Source: Saprospiraceae bacterium
Lineage (GTDB): Bacteria; Bacteroidota; Bacteroidia; Chitinophagales; Saprospiraceae
NCBI GenBank assembly: GCA_026985735.1
Contig: JALSPW010000097.1
Span: 1-47,992, forward strand
Direction of reading: 5' to 3'
Length of the DNA stretch: 47,992 nucleotides
In this document: in pieces, positions 4,407 through 13,125 of the stretch
Layout: each line of letters begins with the position of its first letter
Position numbering within the stretch: position 1 is the stretch's first letter
Notes under the pieces: model-generated
Told to the model about the DNA's origin: nothing
The model's database searches: none
The model's input: only the letters and a program-made list of their open reading frames with translations
Translations under genes and position numbers: made by a program

Positions 4407-5519
4407 TTACCTGGATAAGATTAGTTTTTTATAATACTTATTACCTTTATTGTCAGAGATAATCACATGGTACATACCTGCTTTAATACTCTGTTTAGCA
4501 TTGTCAATAAGTAAATTGTTGTTCAGTTTGTAGTTTTGCTCTTTTTTCATTATCAATTTACCGGTACTGTCAAAAATATTTATATCCAAATTGCTTCCGG
4601 ATTCTATATTTGTAAGGTTGAAATATACTTTTTCGGATGAAGGGTTAGGGAAAAGCATTAGTTTGGCAATACCTTTTGAAGTATTAAATAAGACATTTTC
4701 CACCTTCGAATATCTCCAACCTCCATCCAAATCAAGCATCTTGAGTCTGTAAAAGAAAGTTTGTTCACCATTTCCATCATATACATCTTTATCTACAAAG
4801 GAGTAATCATTGCTTCGGGAGAAAGCAAAAGATTTAACTTCTCCGATACCACTCCAGTTTTTGCTGTCGGTACTCCTTTCTACAATAAATTTGTCAAAAT
4901 TAATTTCATTTGCAGTTGTCCATGCCAGATATGATGATGTGGGGTTGTATTTACGAACAGTAAATTCTTTTAATTTTATTGGTAATGTGGTCAATGTAAT
5001 ACTACCAACAGACGTGAGTTGATTGGTTGAAATTCTATTCACTTCACTACCAACAACAGGATCAGTATCTTTTAATGTCATGTAAACAGTCATCGAACCA
5101 GACATTCCATTGAATTTCAAACTGAGGTATGTCGAATTTGGTCCTAAACTTGTAGGGCAATCATGAAGGTCCCAATCAGCAACCCCGGCTGAGAAATATA
5201 GATAATGATAACCATTGGCATCATCCCACTCAGAATCCGGACCTCCTGAATTACCCATGTCTAAAGGATTATCTACCATTGAAACACTGGTTATATTTGC
5301 AGCATCCCATTCTGTTTGAAGAATTCTATAGACAAAAATAGTAGGACTGGCAGCAGATCCGCTTGCGTATTGAGATGAAGCGGTTAATGTTGTAGTCATA
5401 TCTGATGATGCATCACTTCCGTATAATCCTCCATCATATAACTCACCTGATATTGATTGTGCATTAATAAAATGAAAATAATAAAAAATAAAAATGATAA
5501 ATAATAGTGTCTTCCTCAT
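4407..5519 (-). CDS. Exported protein with T9SS type A sorting domain
   Basis: The protein has 370 residues from ATG 5519. The in-frame upstream extension overlaps the neighbouring gene's end and lacks signal-peptide character, whereas MRKTLLFIIFIFYYFHFINA is a good signal peptide. A beta-rich unknown domain covers about residues 21-170. An FN3-like segment follows (LPIKLKEFTV..., then LAWTTANEINFDKFIVERS, ending FFYRLKMLDLDGGWRYSKV), which commonly precedes sorting domains in Bacteroidota. The final approximately 85 residues are a T9SS type A domain (MLFPNPSSEKVYF ... GMYHVIISDNKG). The protein should therefore be secreted across the outer membrane and fixed to the surface. It lies 22 bases downstream of the dockerin-like gene and is probably co-transcribed with it. 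The N-terminal domain is not one I recognise; a role in binding the neighbour is speculation. Confidence 0.85.
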   Translation of the reverse strand: MRKTLLFIIFIFYYFHFINAQSISGELYDGGLYGSDASSDMTTTLTASSQYASGSAASPTIFVYRILQTEWDAANITSVSMVDNPLDMGNSGGPDSEWDDANGYHYLYFSAGVADWDLHDCPTSLGPNSTYLSLKFNGMSGSMTVYMTLKDTDPVVGSEVNRISTNQLTSVGSITLTTLPIKLKEFTVRKYNPTSSYLAWTTANEINFDKFIVERSTDSKNWSGIGEVKSFAFSRSNDYSFVDKDVYDGNGEQTFFYRLKMLDLDGGWRYSKVENVLFNTSKGIAKLMLFPNPSSEKVYFNLTNIESGSNLDINIFDSTGKLIMKKEQNYKLNNNLLIDNAKQSIKAGMYHVIISDNKGNKYYKKLILSR

Positions 5520-5541
5520 TGTAAAAATGTTTAAAATATTT

Positions 5542-7164
5542 TTATAATTGTTCATCTTTTTGACCGTTTGCATTTCCCCCCAATACATCATTAAGAATGA
5601 AATCTCTGTCTGATTTAATAGTTGTTGAAGGAGGAATAAATGTTTGTTTTGCTCTTACATGTCCATCCATATTTACATCTCCTGAATTATATGTATCTGA
5701 TTGTCCATTAGTATCCCCACCCAATACATCGTTAAGGATATAATCCCTATCAGAATAAATTGTTGTTGAAGGCGGTATGAATGTTTGTTTCGCTCTAACA
5801 TAAGCATCTTGATTTGCATTTCCACCCCACATAGCCCAAACACCACTGGCAACTTCTTTCATCGGATCCGTGCCATAAGCCTGGGATGATGCTGTTGTGA
5901 AATCATGTGAAGGATTTGCTGTGAAATCCAATGTGGAACTTGTTCTTATGCCAAGATGATTTCTATGTCTTATTGCAATATATCCTGATGTGGGTGCATC
6001 TTTAAATTTTGGAGTACTAGTCCCGTCCAGCTCATATATTTGTCCGTCTTTGTTGATAAATTTGCTATACGATTTTAATATGTTTGATGCATCGGCAGCA
6101 TCCCGGATTTCAATTTTTATCCAATCAGTAATATTTGCATTTGGAATGGAGCTTACGCTTTCTCCTGTGCCATAAGGTGAAGTAAGCGGTAATAAACTCG
6201 AGCTGTTCAATGTCGTAGTCATTTCAGTACCGCTATACGCTCCTTGCAAAAATGCTTTTAACGAAGCCATTTTTCCATAAAAATTCATGCCACTAAAATC
6301 TGTACTTGACGTAACATCTCCGGTGACGGTGTTATTGGTATCATCATTGCCGGCATTGGCAAAACTCCAATCGGATGTGTAGCTAGCACCTTTGATATTT
6401 GTTTCCGTACCTGTAATATCAGCGTCGGTATATGTTCCGGTCAAAGTTGCAGAATATCCTGTTATGTCTGTAACATCAACATTCCAATATCTTGTAAGAT
6501 AAGCATTTGCATCAGAATATAAATTGGGATGAACGGCATCGACAACATTGATAGCAACTTTGGCTGCAGATCCGTAAGAAGTGGCTGAAACATTAGCCGT
6601 GACAGGAGAATACTCATCACTGTCACCGATATTGTACGTAAATGAGCCATCTGCCGAAAATCTTTTTTCTACAACTCCCGCACCATCTGCCTGGATGTAA
6701 TGAGTTGCATCGGCATTTGTAATGGTTGCACCTGAAGCAAAAGCAAGATTATTGGCTCCAAGTATAAGTTTATTGTTATTTGCGGGTGTGAAATCCAGAT
6801 TAGTTGTGATTTCCATAGCATCGGTTAAAGTCATGTTAACAGCATCATCTTTATTCAAAAGGATTTTGCCAAAGTCATCTCCTCCGGATTTTATATTTTT
6901 ACTTGCAGAACCAAAAAATTTCACTGTAGAGTTAGCATCAGCATCAAATGAAGCTGCAGTTTCACTTGTGAAATCTCCGCTCACCTCCAATGTGGCATTT
7001 GATTCCAATTGAAGTGTGCCGGTAGTATTTGTTACATCACTATCCACATGGAGAGTCGCTCCGTTTTTGACAATGATAGTTGCTCCGTTATTTACTAATT
7101 GTGCGTATGTCCAAGTAGTAAAAAGGAAAGATAAGAATAAAATAATCATAAACCTTTTTTGCAT
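5542..7164 (-). CDS. Exported surface protein with two C-terminal dockerin-like repeats
   Basis: The 540-residue protein starts with a signal peptide (MQKRFMIILFLSFLFTTWTYAQ). Residues 22-90 hold beta-helix-like repeats (NNGATIIVKNGATLHV, then LQLESNATLEVSGDF). Residues 160-300 resemble segments of large Bacteroidota adhesin/hemagglutinin-type proteins. About 302-445 is a domain I recognise from the same class of proteins (DWIKIEIRDA ... GYIAIRHRNHLGI). The C-terminus carries two near-identical units, about 448-483 and 495-530. Each has an Asp/Asn-rich loop (GNANQDAYV; GDVNMDGHV), then VRAKQTFIPPSTTI, SDRD and ILNDVLGG. These look like calcium-binding dockerin-type loops. There is no T9SS sorting domain after them. 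A good promoter (7201-7231) precedes the gene, and the sorting-domain protein at 4407-5519 follows. Confidence 0.8.
   Translation of the reverse strand: MQKRFMIILFLSFLFTTWTYAQLVNNGATIIVKNGATLHVDSDVTNTTGTLQLESNATLEVSGDFTSETAASFDADANSTVKFFGSASKNIKSGGDDFGKILLNKDDAVNMTLTDAMEITTNLDFTPANNNKLILGANNLAFASGATITNADATHYIQADGAGVVEKRFSADGSFTYNIGDSDEYSPVTANVSATSYGSAAKVAINVVDAVHPNLYSDANAYLTRYWNVDVTDITGYSATLTGTYTDADITGTETNIKGASYTSDWSFANAGNDDTNNTVTGDVTSSTDFSGMNFYGKMASLKAFLQGAYSGTEMTTTLNSSSLLPLTSPYGTGESVSSIPNANITDWIKIEIRDAADASNILKSYSKFINKDGQIYELDGTSTPKFKDAPTSGYIAIRHRNHLGIRTSSTLDFTANPSHDFTTASSQAYGTDPMKEVASGVWAMWGGNANQDAYVRAKQTFIPPSTTIYSDRDYILNDVLGGDTNGQSDTYNSGDVNMDGHVRAKQTFIPPSTTIKSDRDFILNDVLGGNANGQKDEQL
5577..5810 (-). 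repeat. Tandem dockerin-like coding repeat
   Basis: Two units of about 90 bases (about 5577-5670 and 5718-5810) encode almost the same peptide, differing at only a few residues over the VRAKQTFIPPSTTI to ILNDVLGG stretch. At the DNA level they differ at many synonymous positions. That pattern indicates an old duplication held by selection on the protein, not a recent copying event. Confidence 0.75.
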
Positions 7165-7200
7165 AACTCAAGTATTTTGGTTTTTATTAATTAATTTTAA

Positions 7201-7231
7201 CAAAGTTAAACAATTTATATGAAATATTCAA
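7201..7231 (-). promoter_or_regulatory. Promoter of the dockerin-like surface protein gene
   Basis: On the minus strand TTG (7231-7229) is followed after 20 bases by TAACTTTG (7208-7201), a full match to TTG-N20-TAnnTTTG. The box ends 37 bases before the ATG at 7164. Confidence 0.7.
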
Positions 7232-7339
7232 TACTTAATATTAAATAAATTATAAAAAATTAGTATTTTGTTCGTTTAAGCTTTTAATTTACTTATTTTT
7301 TATTATTAAATGTAATTCTCAAAACTTTTTATTATTGTT

Positions 7340-10300
7340 TTATTGATTTTGTATATTCAATGTGCCATTTATTATCAAATGTGCTCCCGAATCTAAAATT
7401 ACTTTTTTTGCATTTGCAGAAGTCCCTGTATCTATAATCGGTTGATTAGTCGTGTTAGGGATTAGTACTTCAAAATTTAAAGACGGTATTTTTCCTACAT
7501 CCCAATTTGATGATACATTCCAAATGTTATCTGCTGCACCTGTCCAGGTAAATTTGTCTTTTGTGTCAACAGTGTAGTCTTCTACTTCGCCCCAACTACC
7601 GGTAGAACAAGGACCTGCACCTGTTCCCCAGTTTCCTCTTACTCGTAGAAGGTGTTTTCCTAAATTGTATCCGGTAGGCATAGTGATTTGTGTTGTGCTT
7701 AATTGATTGGCAGGACAATAAAAGTCAGACAATACTTTTTCAGAACTTTCGAATTCCTGATTGTCATTCCAGTCTATCCAAATGCTAACGCTTAGTCCAT
7801 TATATGACATTTTAATACTTGTATTGTATACGCTATCCGGTAATATCGCAGTAGTAATGTCAGTAAAATCAGAATAATGTGAAGCGCCGCTGCTATTGTC
7901 AATTTGATTCAAAACAAATCTTTTAATATGAGTACCTACATCTCCATTGGTAAATTCAGGTCTGCAATAAGTGATTTGAGAAGCCGGATTGTTAATTCCG
8001 GGTGCTGTATTATAAACGGTACTTGAGCCATTTCCGGTATAATCATACACAATAAAAAAATATTCCGTTGAAGGTTGCAAATTTGTAACTTCTACTTCAG
8101 TATTGCCGGGGCCATTATAAATGACTTGCTCTCCTCCACCATAAACAGTATTTCCCGGTGGATCGGAACCATCTGTGGGAGGAGTGAAATTATTTTCGGT
8201 ATTTATTTTTACAACTCTGTTTGTTCCTGTTCCATTTGTCCAACTAACACTAGTTTTATCAGTTGTAGTATTTGAAAAAATAATATCTCTGGACTGATTA
8301 ACATCCGGTGGTAATGTAGTAAATGATTTTTCATCCCCGTAAGATATTGTGAAATTATTTCGGGCATAGGCTCGTACGTAATAGGTAGTATTTGGAAATA
8401 ATTGTGACAAATTACTGGTGAATGTCCCTGTACCGTTACCATCGGAGGTAAAACCAATATTTTTACTAAAGCTTGGATTGGATACGGTATCCCAAACTAC
8501 TCCCCTGCTTGTTATTGATCTGCCTCCGTCATCTGTAATGTTTCCACCGGAGGTAGCGGAAAAATATCCTATATCTGTTATGTTATTTGTTGTCAGGGAT
8601 GGAGAGGCAGAAAGTGTTGTGAAATTTTCTACTTGACCATAATTTGTTCCGTCATCGTTTATAGCATAAGATCTCACATAATAGTCGGTATTCGGATCAA
8701 GATTATTCATTTGACTTATATAATTTCCTATTCCCGGACCTTCATCGGTAAATCCCCAATTATTATCCAATGTGGGATTTTGGTTTTTACTCCAAACTAT
8801 ACCTTTATGAGTGACGGATGAAGATCCTTGTGAAGAAATATTTCCTCCGCTTTGTGCAGATGTGGTGCCGATATTGCTTACCGCTGTTGTTGTTAATTCC
8901 GGTAAATCTTTAAATATTATACCATAATCTTCTGCCTGTCCATATCCCGGGTTAGTACATGAACCGGATAATGAATAATAATCACAAATAATTCTCATCC
9001 TTAACAATTGATTGAAAACAGGATTCGAAATTGTTGTAATGTCAATATTTTGGACTCCGGATACTTTTGAAGGTGCAGTATATACTTCTTCGCCGGTATC
9101 TTCAAAATCTCCATCGTTGTTATAATCAATATAAACATTCCAATATTCGGTATATCCGGTACCTAATTCAACAGTTAAATTGTAAGTGGTATTCGTTTCT
9201 AACTTTGTGTAATCGGAATTTATAAAATTCATATAACCTTTCGGAGGATCCGGGTTATCTTGGTATGGTTGTCCTGATAACTTATTAATCGATTCAAGTA
9301 CCACATGATAAATCCCCATTCCATAATTTCCAAGATTCTGTGTAGCAGGAGTGCAATCGGGAGAAACGATATTATATACACTGATATAAGAATAGATGGT
9401 TTTAGAATCATTTCCATTAGTATTTGAGGCTTGTAATGTAATGTCATAATTCCCACTCGAAGTAAATTTAATGTGTGGGTGTTGGGAAGTTGCATTAGTT
9501 CCATCGACGAATAAATATGAGGAAGGTGAAATTGTCCAAGTCCATGAAGTAGGAAAATTGCTTGAAAGGTCTTCAAAGAAGATAGTGTCTCCATTATTAA
9601 TAGTCGTTTTATTTGCTTTAAAATTTACCATAGGTACAGCATTTTTATCTTGGTGAATCGGCGATTCCCATAGACCTCTGCCGAAAGTAGCTGCTCTCAA
9701 CCTGCTATCAGTGTATCCGTAATAAATTTCAAGTTCAGTTACATTGACAACAGGTAGGTCTCCATCATAGGGTATCCAATCAGACATAGATGCGTCTTTA
9801 TAAAATACTCCGGTTTTAGTGCCTACGAAGATTCCTTCGTCGGAATTTTTATCATATACCATACAATTTAAATCTGTAGATGACGGGATGGTTCCTGATA
9901 TATCAGTCCATGTATTTCCGCTATCTATTGATTTATAGATTCTATTGGATTGGATTATATAAACTATTTCCGGATCTGAAGGATGACAAATTACATCGTC
10001 TATCCAGCCGGAGTTTGGTAATTTTGAAGTTAGATTTTTCCAGGAAGGTGATGTGTCATTGATATTATCACTTCTGAATAGGGAATGGTCTTTTCTTACG
10101 CCGTAAAATATATCGATATTTGCGGGAGATTGAGCAATAGCTTGATAATTACTTGAATTGCTTCCTCCGAGATTGTTGGATATTTTCGTCCATGTAGGTG
10201 GATCATTCCTCACATTATTCGTTCTCCAAATGTTTTTATATCCGAAAAACATAGTATTTGGGTCGGTTAAATGTAGCATATAAGGAATTACCCATGCACC

Positions 10301-11959
10301 ACTCTCATCAATTCCGTTTACTCCGTTTGCTGCGATTGTTTTCCAATTACCATAACCTTGACTAGTGGATCGTTTTATTTTGTCAATATACGTAGAATAG
10401 GCGTAAGTTTTATCATCATAGTCAAATGCGGATTCCATACCATCACCTCCCAATACAGTAGTGAATTTGCCATTATCATAATTTGCCGAGCCATTGTCTT
10501 GATAACCATTGATTACCAAATCTCTGTTTTGTGCCGCTTGACCAAGCCGGTATGCTTGAGCAATATTCAAGCCATCACTCAGTTGACCAAATGTATCAAA
10601 CCAATCATCCGAATAATAGAGCCCTCCATCATTTCCTATGTAAATTCTACCGTTTAATTTATTTTGCCACAGAGTGTGTTGGTCTGCATGAACTTGTGTG
10701 CTCCAATGCGTTTTTTTTGTAAAATTTACTCCGCCGTCAGTACTTTCGTGGATATTTATCGAGCCTACTAAAATATGATCTATATTTGATGTGTCAACCA
10801 ACATACATAAATCATATCCTGCTTGTGATTTGTCATCTCCGTCATTATATCCCAATATATTTGGATGATCCTCAGAGGTTATTCTTGTGAAACTTTGACC
10901 GTAATCAGTTGATTTAAATATTCCTTGAAATGTTTGAGAACCACCGGTTAACAAACATAAAACGGAATTTGGCTCGTCTTTACTGACACCGATTACTAAT
11001 CTGTTGCAAGGAATTAATCCTTGTGTTATTTTTGACCAAGAGTCTCCCCCGTCAGTAGATCTGTAAAAATCACCATTCGCTGTTGCATAAACATAATCCG
11101 GATTTGTAGGGTGTAATTTTATATCTCGATAGTTGTTATTATTTGATGAAACTAATATCCAGCTAGATGCAGCGTTTGTAGATTTATAAATACCACCACT
11201 TGTCGCAGCAATTAAAATATTTTTATTTGTAGGATGCATAACCATCATTCCTACTTTTTTATTGCCCATTCCGGAATTTGACTGCAACCATGTTAATCCT
11301 CCGTCAGTGGACTTATAAACTCCGAGGCCAGGTGAATTACCACTATCACGGTCACCGGTACCGATATACATTGAATCAGGGTGGGCAGGATTTATTATTA
11401 TGCTGGATACTCCTAATGTAGGCATTTGGTCTGTATTGCTTGAATAAGAGCTTCCTCCGTCAGTTGTTAACCACAAACCTCCATTTGGCGCTCCTACCCA
11501 ATATTTATTTGCATTGAACGGGTCAAAGGCAATGGCATTAACCCTGCCTTTTCCCGTTACTTGACCTGTATTGTTTGTGGGATATTCCAAAGGTCCGATT
11601 TCTTTCCATTTTCCGGCATTTGTTCCCGGACCTCTTGATTTTATAAGTTTTTTATAACGATAATAAGCTTTGCTGATTTTGTCAGGTGCAGGTAAGTTAC
11701 CATTTATATCTACTGAACCCTCATTTAGCCATGCCCATTTTTCAAATTCTTTGTATCCGGTTCCCTTTTCTTTTTTATGGTTTTCAAAATATAAATCATA
11801 AGCTCTTTTAACTTCAAAAAAATTAGGTCTGTTGCCCTGCAGCATTTCCAGCCAGTACGGCTGCTTTTTTAATTCTTCATCGCTTATTTTTATGCCTTGT
11901 CCTAATATATTATGGATAAATATAATATAAGTAAAAAGTAGGATAAATGATTTCTTCAT
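7340..11959 (-). CDS. Giant exported multidomain protein (beta-propeller, PKD, GEVED, FN3)
   Basis: The protein has 1539 residues with signal peptide MKKSFILLFTYIIFIHNILG. Residues about 115-765 form a sialidase/VPS10-like propeller. It contains Asp-box motifs such as STDGGLTW (217-224), STDGGDSW (301-308) and SIDSGNTW (677-684). No glycosidase active-site pattern is obvious, so this is probably a binding scaffold. A PKD domain follows at about 775-862. A GEVED domain at about 870-1015 includes NVYIDYNNDGDFEDTGEEVY. Two FN3-like repeats span about 1020-1215 (each with AxSGGNI and TxYYVRxYA), and a further FN3 about 1220-1330. A second GEVED spans about 1335-1465 (IWIDWNDNQEFE). The last 70 residues (FTWTGAADNIWNVSSNWDVG to LNIQNQ) resemble the start of a beta-helical region and simply stop. 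No T9SS sorting domain is present, which is unusual for such an architecture. It has its own promoter at 12061-12092. Confidence 0.85.
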   Translation of the reverse strand: MKKSFILLFTYIIFIHNILGQGIKISDEELKKQPYWLEMLQGNRPNFFEVKRAYDLYFENHKKEKGTGYKEFEKWAWLNEGSVDINGNLPAPDKISKAYYRYKKLIKSRGPGTNAGKWKEIGPLEYPTNNTGQVTGKGRVNAIAFDPFNANKYWVGAPNGGLWLTTDGGSSYSSNTDQMPTLGVSSIIINPAHPDSMYIGTGDRDSGNSPGLGVYKSTDGGLTWLQSNSGMGNKKVGMMVMHPTNKNILIAATSGGIYKSTNAASSWILVSSNNNNYRDIKLHPTNPDYVYATANGDFYRSTDGGDSWSKITQGLIPCNRLVIGVSKDEPNSVLCLLTGGSQTFQGIFKSTDYGQSFTRITSEDHPNILGYNDGDDKSQAGYDLCMLVDTSNIDHILVGSINIHESTDGGVNFTKKTHWSTQVHADQHTLWQNKLNGRIYIGNDGGLYYSDDWFDTFGQLSDGLNIAQAYRLGQAAQNRDLVINGYQDNGSANYDNGKFTTVLGGDGMESAFDYDDKTYAYSTYIDKIKRSTSQGYGNWKTIAANGVNGIDESGAWVIPYMLHLTDPNTMFFGYKNIWRTNNVRNDPPTWTKISNNLGGSNSSNYQAIAQSPANIDIFYGVRKDHSLFRSDNINDTSPSWKNLTSKLPNSGWIDDVICHPSDPEIVYIIQSNRIYKSIDSGNTWTDISGTIPSSTDLNCMVYDKNSDEGIFVGTKTGVFYKDASMSDWIPYDGDLPVVNVTELEIYYGYTDSRLRAATFGRGLWESPIHQDKNAVPMVNFKANKTTINNGDTIFFEDLSSNFPTSWTWTISPSSYLFVDGTNATSQHPHIKFTSSGNYDITLQASNTNGNDSKTIYSYISVYNIVSPDCTPATQNLGNYGMGIYHVVLESINKLSGQPYQDNPDPPKGYMNFINSDYTKLETNTTYNLTVELGTGYTEYWNVYIDYNNDGDFEDTGEEVYTAPSKVSGVQNIDITTISNPVFNQLLRMRIICDYYSLSGSCTNPGYGQAEDYGIIFKDLPELTTTAVSNIGTTSAQSGGNISSQGSSSVTHKGIVWSKNQNPTLDNNWGFTDEGPGIGNYISQMNNLDPNTDYYVRSYAINDDGTNYGQVENFTTLSASPSLTTNNITDIGYFSATSGGNITDDGGRSITSRGVVWDTVSNPSFSKNIGFTSDGNGTGTFTSNLSQLFPNTTYYVRAYARNNFTISYGDEKSFTTLPPDVNQSRDIIFSNTTTDKTSVSWTNGTGTNRVVKINTENNFTPPTDGSDPPGNTVYGGGEQVIYNGPGNTEVEVTNLQPSTEYFFIVYDYTGNGSSTVYNTAPGINNPASQITYCRPEFTNGDVGTHIKRFVLNQIDNSSGASHYSDFTDITTAILPDSVYNTSIKMSYNGLSVSIWIDWNDNQEFESSEKVLSDFYCPANQLSTTQITMPTGYNLGKHLLRVRGNWGTGAGPCSTGSWGEVEDYTVDTKDKFTWTGAADNIWNVSSNWDVGKIPSLNFEVLIPNTTNQPIIDTGTSANAKKVILDSGAHLIINGTLNIQNQ

Positions 11960-12270: not shown

Positions 12271-13125
12271 ATGAATAGATTATTTTTTGCTATAGTATTT
12301 ACCGCTTTTGCAATATCGGTATCATGTCAACCGGAGTTTGGAGAATATGAAAAAAAATTAGCTCGATACAATGATTATTTTGTCAATGCGGATCAGTGGG
12401 AACATCGAAAAGCTGCTCATGATAATTTTAAACCTCTTTTTGAGAGTACATTAAAAAAAGACAGTTCGTTTTATTATCCATTTGATTCTTTGAAGTGGAT
12501 ATCTAAATTAATTCCGCCGGATTCTTCTTTTAGGGTGTTTTCATGGCAGTTGACGAAGTCTGATAGTATAAATTATTATTTTGGTTATTTGCAAAAAAAA
12601 GATGGTAGACTATACGAATTAAAAGATAATAAGGAATTTTTTTCAGATTTGGAATATGAAGTTTTTACCAATGACGATTGGTACGGGCAATTATATTACA
12701 ATCTGTACAGCTATAGAAATCGGAATAAAAACGAATATATCCTGTTTGGTTATAAAAGATTGAATAAATATGATAAAATCAAGATTGCCGCCCCTGTATT
12801 TTTTGAAGATGGAAATGTTTATTTTGGAAAAGAAGTTTTTCAGGATACTTTACGGCAAGGAGGATTGAAAAACAGGGTTATTCTTGAAACTGCAAATGAA
12901 GCTGCATCAAAATTGAATTATGATGAAGATCTGGGTATTATTATTTATGATCATACTATAATAATTCCATTGAAACGACCGAGCTGGATGCATCCTCCTA
13001 TGGTTCCCGATGGTTCATATCACGGTTATAAATGGGATGGGGAAAAATGGAAATTTATAAATAAAGTCTTTAATCAAAAATATGATAAAAATTCTATTCC
13101 GGGAAGAATTAAAAGGAATAAATGA
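12271..13125 (+). CDS. Exported protein of unknown function
   Basis: The 284-residue protein begins MNRLFFAIVFTAFAISVSCQPEFG. The hydrophobic stretch ends at a cysteine (C20), so it may be a lipoprotein, although the residues before the cysteine (ISVS) are a poor lipobox. The mature part is rich in Tyr, Asp, Asn and Lys, with segments such as DSSFRVFSWQLTKSDSINYYFGYLQKKDGRLYEL and a C-terminal region IIIYDHTIIIPLKRPSW then GSYHGYKWDGEKWKFINKVF, the latter typical of beta-rich Bacteroidota proteins of no known function. I cannot name a family with confidence. It is transcribed divergently from the giant surface protein and convergently with the radical SAM gene, so it stands alone. Confidence 0.75.
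   Translation: MNRLFFAIVFTAFAISVSCQPEFGEYEKKLARYNDYFVNADQWEHRKAAHDNFKPLFESTLKKDSSFYYPFDSLKWISKLIPPDSSFRVFSWQLTKSDSINYYFGYLQKKDGRLYELKDNKEFFSDLEYEVFTNDDWYGQLYYNLYSYRNRNKNEYILFGYKRLNKYDKIKIAAPVFFEDGNVYFGKEVFQDTLRQGGLKNRVILETANEAASKLNYDEDLGIIIYDHTIIIPLKRPSWMHPPMVPDGSYHGYKWDGEKWKFINKVFNQKYDKNSIPGRIKRNK

Follow-up and report, generated by a model that had tools for sequence, protein, structure and literature searches.

The window analysed here, a stretch of 47,992 nucleotides from a Saprospiraceae bacterium (contig JALSPW010000097.1 of assembly GCA_026985735.1), contains two adjacent minus-strand genes that probably encode a cohesin/dockerin-like two-component system for docking a protein on the cell surface through the type IX secretion system (T9SS). 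C-terminal sorting domains serve for T9SS export and anchoring, and the 370-residue protein of the pair (the receptor) would be exported and anchored through its own domain of this kind, displaying its N-terminal domain (N-domain) as a socket. The 540-residue protein (the client), which has no sorting domain of its own, would enter the periplasm by its signal peptide and be held at the surface once its C-terminal dockerin-like repeats plug into that socket. Repeats and socket would together determine specificity, and their coding segments, which adjoin, could be swapped by one recombination. Binding, surface location and the fold of the socket are what we infer here.

The initial annotation described a cluster of three exported proteins, the third being a 1539-residue protein encoded upstream of the pair, and stated that one of the three carries a visible sorting domain. 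All three open reading frames (ORFs) pass a simple signal-peptide heuristic, and a Pfam search agreed that the receptor alone matches the sorting-domain family PF18962 (40.5 bits, cut-off 27; TIGR04183, 39, cut-off 23). With a signal peptide by the heuristic and a C-terminal PF18962/TIGR04183 domain, the receptor has the features of a T9SS type A substrate. We took the 370-residue form, whose start at 5519 agrees with the signal peptide, rather than the 394-residue form that begins at an alternative upstream ATG at 5591. The client consists of a signal peptide, a body that is β-rich by eye, a haemagglutinin-like module and, as annotated, two copies of a dockerin-like repeat; its final residues are DEQL. 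It has no Pfam or NCBIfam match up to an E-value (E) of 1, and no sorting domain by either collection, and Pfam found no glycoside hydrolase domain in either protein of the pair. The haemagglutinin-like module is widespread in the phylum, and no convincing Pfam or NCBIfam family was found for it among 24 members tested.

Two other genomes of the genus, G002 and G004 (identified by contig number and position as the contigs of loci L068 and L069), have the same gene pair, but both plug and socket differ from those of the window. The body of the window client is 73 and 77% identical to its counterparts in G002 and G004, respectively, and the repeats are 34 and 39% identical; in the receptor, the N-domain is 17 and 24% identical and the rest 50 and 53%. 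Shuffled controls for the receptor N-domain gave a mean of 19 and 21% and a maximum of 24 and 27%. Over all eight cross-type comparisons, identity was 57-82% for the body, 34-44% for the repeats, 16-24% for the N-domain and 36-66% for the rest of the receptor, and seven same-type comparisons gave 67-91% for the repeats and 62-86% for the N-domains. At the DNA level, three cross-type profiles in 150-bp blocks showed 31-50% identity over one contiguous stretch of approximately 750-900 bp, with at least 55% on both sides, and this stretch spans the repeats, the intergenic bases, the signal peptide and the N-domain. The corresponding cassette of the window, whose boundaries are approximate at 150-bp resolution, has 36-50% DNA identity with G002 and G004 and flanking blocks with 55-81%; in the comparison with G002, the low stretch extends one block further, to approximately 4915. 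Because the plug at the 3′ end of the first gene adjoins the socket at the 5′ start of the second, one recombination can swap both.

The same contiguity suggests another explanation, in which joint difference and co-variation reflect linkage only, that is, one recombination tract across both genes with no functional coupling. This explanation does not account for the fact that the low-identity stretch starts and stops near domain boundaries in two genes, as far as 150-bp blocks resolve them. We compared the domains of 82 adjacent pairs (83 minus one near-duplicate; one pair with a broken module gene, that is, a gene of the client's kind, was skipped), and the similarity of the repeats correlated with that of the N-domains (Spearman 0.36). 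The partial rank correlation was 0.289 when the haemagglutinin part and the bridge/sorting domain of the receptor were held constant, and none of 1000 permutations reached this value (maximum 0.086). The control partial correlations were 0.054 between repeats and bridge/sorting domain and 0.158 between haemagglutinin part and N-domain; the latter shows that flanking domains co-vary somewhat, as the linkage explanation would have it. For 61 of the 82 pairs, the nearest N-domain was among the top three when ranked by repeats, compared with 43 by haemagglutinin part, 42 by bridge/sorting domain and 3 by chance. Linkage of contiguous DNA may contribute to this co-variation. Because the repeat–N-domain correlation persists with both flanking domains controlled and the gene pairing is maintained across the phylum, we regard linkage alone as improbable and a functional plug and socket as the better account of the joint switch.

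Window-type repeats and N-domains, searched separately in 60 genomes (the window's own included), were found in the same three genomes and at the same four places, and all four copies that these queries detected in the genus are adjacent and in identical gene order. A separate search with the N-domain matched G479 as a fifth genome, which the adjacency counts exclude. In a sample of 296 genomes drawn evenly from Bacteroidota, the module profile matched 38 genomes, which rules out that the pair is an oddity of one genus, and the N-domain profile matched two, the window genome and G121, in which the module and N-domain matches lie approximately 120 bases apart.

Partners were sought by position and sorting domain. 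The surroundings of all module places of the sample were fetched (37 genomes), and a strict partner was defined as a sorting-domain protein of 230-500 residues encoded on the same strand within 350 bp after a run of module genes. Such a partner followed 39 of 57 runs but only 2 of the 202 remaining genes in these stretches (Fisher 7e-30), and 26 of the 57 when only the standard sorting-domain hidden Markov model (HMM) was used (Fisher 9e-18). The 39 cases come from 29 of the 37 genomes, or from 16 if only the standard HMM is counted. The sorting-domain HMMs were built from the partner proteins themselves; as a control, ten partners were searched with Pfam, and PF18962 exceeded its cut-off in every one. 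For tandem copies the last one was decisive, ORFs or neighbours cut at an end were excluded, and the place at L170 was not recovered by the ORF scan. In the best 80 loci of a wider contig scan (L066-L145), the strict rule found a partner after 21 of 74 runs compared with 3 of 290 other genes. The misses there include genomes with many scattered copies, and five carry a partner of 750-773 residues whose N-domain clusters with cluster C2 (L072, L074, L077, L078 and L080). Among 20 family stretches, 17 had a partner and two of the three misses lie at contig ends, but because these stretches were hand-picked from the matches listed, with client ORFs of approximately the window size, this proportion is not unbiased. 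Co-occurrence of the two genes in relatives, on which the initial annotation had staked its idea, was thus found both within the genus and across the phylum.

The partners fall into several N-domain clusters and singletons with one architecture, consisting of a signal peptide (by heuristic in 53 of 60 partners of both sets), a domain of approximately 140-200 residues, often a bridge starting with LPVEL or similar, and the sorting domain. At L164 (3112-4449), L160 (2562-3839) and 11 similar loci, the sorting domain of the partner has a longer, variant form, which in two of these 13 partners tested scored 20.9 and 14.2 bits with PF18962, below the cut-off, and may be a separate sorting-domain class. 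L171 (2892-12159), L139 (2135-10433) and L169 (1-5396) each have several clients, encoded by three to four module genes in tandem. At L053 (7860-9687) the module gene is broken up into two ORFs although the adjacent partner is intact, and the partner at L049 (6135-6590) is shrunk to a 151-residue sorting-domain fragment; these copies are likely decaying or misassembled. A second module protein, with a third type of repeats, is encoded on contig C405 of G003 (L226, 2119-3732), which ends right after it.

No sorting domain was found in any of the 69 module proteins of the phylum sample that are complete at the C-terminus, nor in the 102 of the best 80 loci. With all 171 module proteins devoid of one, joint export with the receptor is an attractive idea; in the available part of PMC10994853, a fusion without the C-terminal domain serves as a control for T9SS targeting. 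In one alternative, the haemagglutinin-like module and repeats are themselves a new T9SS sorting signal, and the adjacent gene encodes either a helper specific to this substrate or a secreted protein that has nothing to do with it. The module is indeed C-terminal in the ORFs seen and excludes a normal sorting domain, a short terminal motif of the Q/K-V/L-P-like or QL-like kind is present in 106 of the 171 proteins, and some genomes have many module matches (107, 63 and 48 in Bacteroidales metagenome-assembled genomes (MAGs), 28 in a Flavobacteriales MAG and 23 in Segetibacter, compared with 2 each in Dyadobacter and G001), all of which would suit such a signal, as would the runs that lack a strict partner. 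It would leave unexplained why the repeats change with the N-domain of the neighbour, why they match dockerins and why the module occurs on multi-cohesin proteins, and we consider it unlikely. In another alternative, which overlaps with the docking system proposed here, the receptor is mainly a secretion adaptor, and the client crosses the outer membrane via the T9SS only in complex with it, to be held or released afterwards. Clients have a signal peptide and no known outer-membrane export tag, so that some route is needed if they are extracellular, and the idea is compatible with all data. In many-copy genomes, however, a small number of receptors would need to serve many clients, as in Segetibacter (G352), with six receptor-type N-domains for 23 module matches; we keep it as a serious possibility, though one with somewhat less than an even chance.

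That the proposed plug is related to dockerins is suggested by several comparisons. The Dockerin_1 family PF00404 matched 8 of 24 members of the module alignment (best E 5e-4), and the module profile weakly matched 11 PDB chains (E 0.05-0.57), all cellulosomal dockerin-bearing components, in a part that we take to be the dockerin. With a permissive calcium-loop pattern, at least one full loop was found in 109 of 171 module ORFs and two in 80. The repeats of a relative (L103) were modelled with a predicted local distance difference test score (pLDDT) of 86-92, and this model, which is of the relative and not of the window repeats, aligned with the dockerin 2y3n_B with Z 9.1 (root-mean-square deviation 2.8, 60 residues aligned). 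Other dockerin rows of this search had Z of at most 4.6, five of the six rows with Z of at least 2 were dockerin entries, and none was a cohesin.

For the socket, the initial annotation reported an unrecognised domain, and the window N-domain indeed has no database match; N-domain profiles gave only chance-like matches to PDB sequences. Among the N-domain clusters, C4 aligned over its full length with Pfam-verified cohesins of Bacteroidales MAGs in hhalign (E 1.5e-5, probability 57%) and C1 over its full length with C4 (E 3.6e-5, probability 44%), compared with E of at least 0.08 in column-shuffled controls; C1 matched the cohesins directly with E 0.022 over 48 residues. An E of 2.7e-5 was also obtained in a comparison without cohesins, that of the bridge with the sorting domain; it covers 19 residues in which the cut between these two parts varies. 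No cohesin link was obtained by hhalign for C2, C6 or the window cluster C3. An HMM of the Bacteroidales cohesins gave borderline matches below E 0.004 for 4 of 68 partner N-termini (best of five shuffled sets, 0.051), and the partner at L102 scored 16 bits with the cohesin family PF00963, below the cut-off of 24.1.

Cohesins are also found in the genomes that carry the module. Of 10 genomes selected by their module loci, 8 have PF00963 matches over the cut-off, including all five Bacteroidales MAGs; of 14 named control genomes, two have matches and one of these is over the cut-off. Using a cohesin HMM built from these same Pfam matches for the Bacteroidales loci, we found proteins of approximately 1150 residues with four cohesins followed by the module at L202 (3065-6532), L204 (3073-6537), L210 (3782-7261) and L213 (3122-6571). 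Three of these four have a flagged signal peptide, and immediately before each gene lies one for a sorting-domain protein that matches cohesin partially and more weakly (E 5e-3 to 1e-6). Proteins of 755-795 residues with three or four cohesins and the module are encoded at L206, L207, L209, L212 and L214, and at L203 and L205 a signal peptide–cohesin protein of 239-240 residues (of the two, only that of L203 has a flagged sorting domain) is followed by a signal peptide–cohesin–module protein of 385-394 residues. Two of the MAGs with the four-cohesin adaptor scaffoldins have 107 and 63 module matches. The four-cohesin loci look like an undescribed cellulosome-like system.

Several observations weigh against the docking system as proposed. 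By our pattern, the window repeats contain no complete 12-residue calcium loop; one partial loop, DVNMDGHV, lies in the second repeat, and is followed by an insertion at the place of the last acidic residue of the standard loop, and PF00404 does not match the window client up to E 1. In the window N-domain, no cohesin was found by Pfam, by a PDB sequence search or by a whole-genome PF00963 scan. C3 matched cohesins in hhalign only with E 0.02 over a terminal patch, so that the window socket resembles a cohesin in position and behaviour rather than by demonstrated homology. The AlphaFold2 model of this domain, from a five-row alignment, is too poor to use (pLDDT 50.6, predicted template modelling score (pTM) 0.54), and because of this low confidence and E above 0.02 throughout, we discarded a Foldseek list in which approximately 17 of the 50 rows shown were cohesins or scaffoldins. 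An interface was sought by single-chain folding at L103, where both genes lie in one frame with a single stop between them that was read as a residue. The dockerin part was well folded, the N-domain was not, no interface was visible and the pTM was 0.27, so that nothing about an interface can be drawn from this model. By the strict rule, 18 of the 57 runs in the phylum sample and 53 of the 74 in the best 80 loci have no adjacent partner, and contiguity of repeats and N-domain in the DNA is by itself enough for some co-inheritance. PF00963 was unmatched in two of the ten module-locus genomes, G352 and G356 (the latter searched with PF00963 alone). The window genome has a single module match and 12 PF00963 matches, 11 over the cut-off and none on the window contig. 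Ten stretches around these matches contain 11 ORFs with cohesin-type domains, one at a contig end, and no module gene was found in these stretches. Because cohesin-type domains are common in this genome without the module, the presence of PF00963 alone says little.

The cohesin-type domains of the window genome might serve other clients. They are single in most of the 11 ORFs (three in L267, two in L270), and by our HMM a sorting domain is present in nine and absent from L267 (1022 residues) and L275. Several are proteins of approximately 1450-1850 residues in which one cohesin-type domain, recognised by Pfam, immediately precedes the T9SS sorting domain, and their stretches contain no module gene; examples are L269 (4789-9132), L271 (2012-6727), L272 (1301-5770), L273 (1648-6078) and L274 (5028-10574).

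On balance, the initial idea that the dockerin-like tail of the client is received by the N-domain of the adjacent protein is strongly supported by the co-occurrence of the genes, the joint difference of the two domains within the genus and the co-variation over 82 pairs; the inclusion of the 1539-residue protein is not supported. The gene pair is not confined to this locus. A broader picture, which we put forward tentatively and with more doubt than confidence, would be a general modular plug-and-socket system in Bacteroidota and relatives. Tagless proteins would travel through the T9SS and be retained on the cell by an adaptor that is cohesin-like and itself bears the sorting domain. Plug and socket would change in evolution as one exchanged cassette, and genomes of some Bacteroidales would contain the same plug 48-107 times, alongside adaptor scaffoldins with several cohesins.

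Table 1. Features of the docking locus in window coordinates.
Feature	Position	Strand	Basis
Receptor/anchor protein, 370 residues	4407-5519	-	ORF list and Pfam
T9SS type A sorting domain of receptor, residues 289-367	4419-4655	-	PF18962
N-terminal domain of receptor, residues 21-179, proposed socket	4983-5459	-	no database match
Exchanged cassette with approximate limits, from the repeats over the intergenic bases and signal peptide to most of the N-domain	5065-5814	-	150-bp DNA identity blocks
Client (module) protein, 540 residues	5542-7164	-	ORF list; homologues found by profile searches
Two dockerin-like repeats of client, residues 443-540, proposed plug	5545-5838	-	
Haemagglutinin-like module of client, approximately residues 300-443	5838-6267	-	profile; the name is our own
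Propeller/PKD/GEVED/FN3 protein, 1539 residues	7340-11959	-	judged outside the unit

The 1539-residue protein has Sortilin, PKD, GEVED and fn3 matches and no sorting domain by Pfam or NCBIfam. Loss of a sorting domain by frameshift was excluded, because the three forward frames downstream of the gene are interrupted by stops and encode no sorting domain. A homologue in G004, 70% identical over the C-terminal 206 residues, ends at the same point, so that, together with the broken frames, the C-terminus looks natural. The downstream neighbour of this homologue is a plus-strand gene and not a module gene. On contig C40 of the sister genome G001, the gene for the 1539-residue protein is absent, and the pair has directly upstream of it a homologue of the window gene at 12271-13125; because the 12271-13125 homologue is kept there, that gene was either gained in the window genome or lost from G001. 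We therefore rejected the 1539-residue protein as a third partner, and the supposed cluster of three reduces to the pair. A short element at its C-terminal end (7340-7550; also L247 and L248), of the form W-G..NW / INGTLN, has matches that recur in many ORFs of relatives. Elsewhere in the window, 701-1771 encodes a GH18 chitinase-like protein with a T9SS sorting domain.

The docking system would offer an answer to how tagless exported proteins could reach and stay on the surface, would give many unannotated secreted proteins a likely role, and would provide natural orthogonal plug/socket pairs for use in protein engineering. PMC5831590, a genome study in Bacteroidetes, reports that it identified neither cohesins nor dockerins, in line with other genomes of the phylum, and the single-cell study PMC10266427 reports dockerins in some Bacteroidales genomes and a cohesin only in a Christensenellales genome. 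In the present data, 38 of 296 genomes have a docking module, 39 of 57 runs have an anchor beside them, and cohesins pass the Pfam cut-off in all five Bacteroidales MAGs tested as well as in the window genome. A literature search that left subscription journals largely uncovered found no prior description of this pair, and the available parts of PMC8542988, PMC6118326, PMC5831590, PMC10266427, PMC4189754 and PMC10202324 describe no gene pair of this kind.

Compared with known systems, the pair resembles the cellulosomal cohesin–dockerin pair (PF00963/PF00404) in the modelled dockerin fold of a relative's repeats, in the moderate cohesin homology of some partner N-domains and in the occurrence of the same module on multi-cohesin proteins of Bacteroidales MAGs. 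It differs in its T9SS anchoring in a diderm cell, in having one socket and one client, in the lack of a glycoside hydrolase domain in the client, in a strongly diverged socket, in the loop insertion of the repeats and in the joint exchange of two domains. In Ruminococcus albus, one cohesin probably anchors isolated dockerin proteins, in that case enzymes, at the surface (PMC6118326). This organism is a Gram-positive cell, and its cohesin, unlike the window receptor, is not known to carry a T9SS sorting domain. The cellulosome-like complex inferred from MAGs of Candidatus Stygibacter (Cloacimonadota) likewise combines dockerin proteins, there enzymes, with a cohesin partner, there a scaffoldin, that has a conserved C-terminal surface-attachment domain (PMC8542988); its scaffoldin is large and bears carbohydrate-binding modules (CBMs), it belongs to another phylum, and the accessible text mentions neither a single-socket gene pair nor co-exchange. 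The cargo of PorP-like and shuttle proteins, in the parts of PMC12618676 and PMC9143113 available, bears a sorting domain, unlike the window client, but there, as proposed here, partner proteins set the final location of T9SS cargo.

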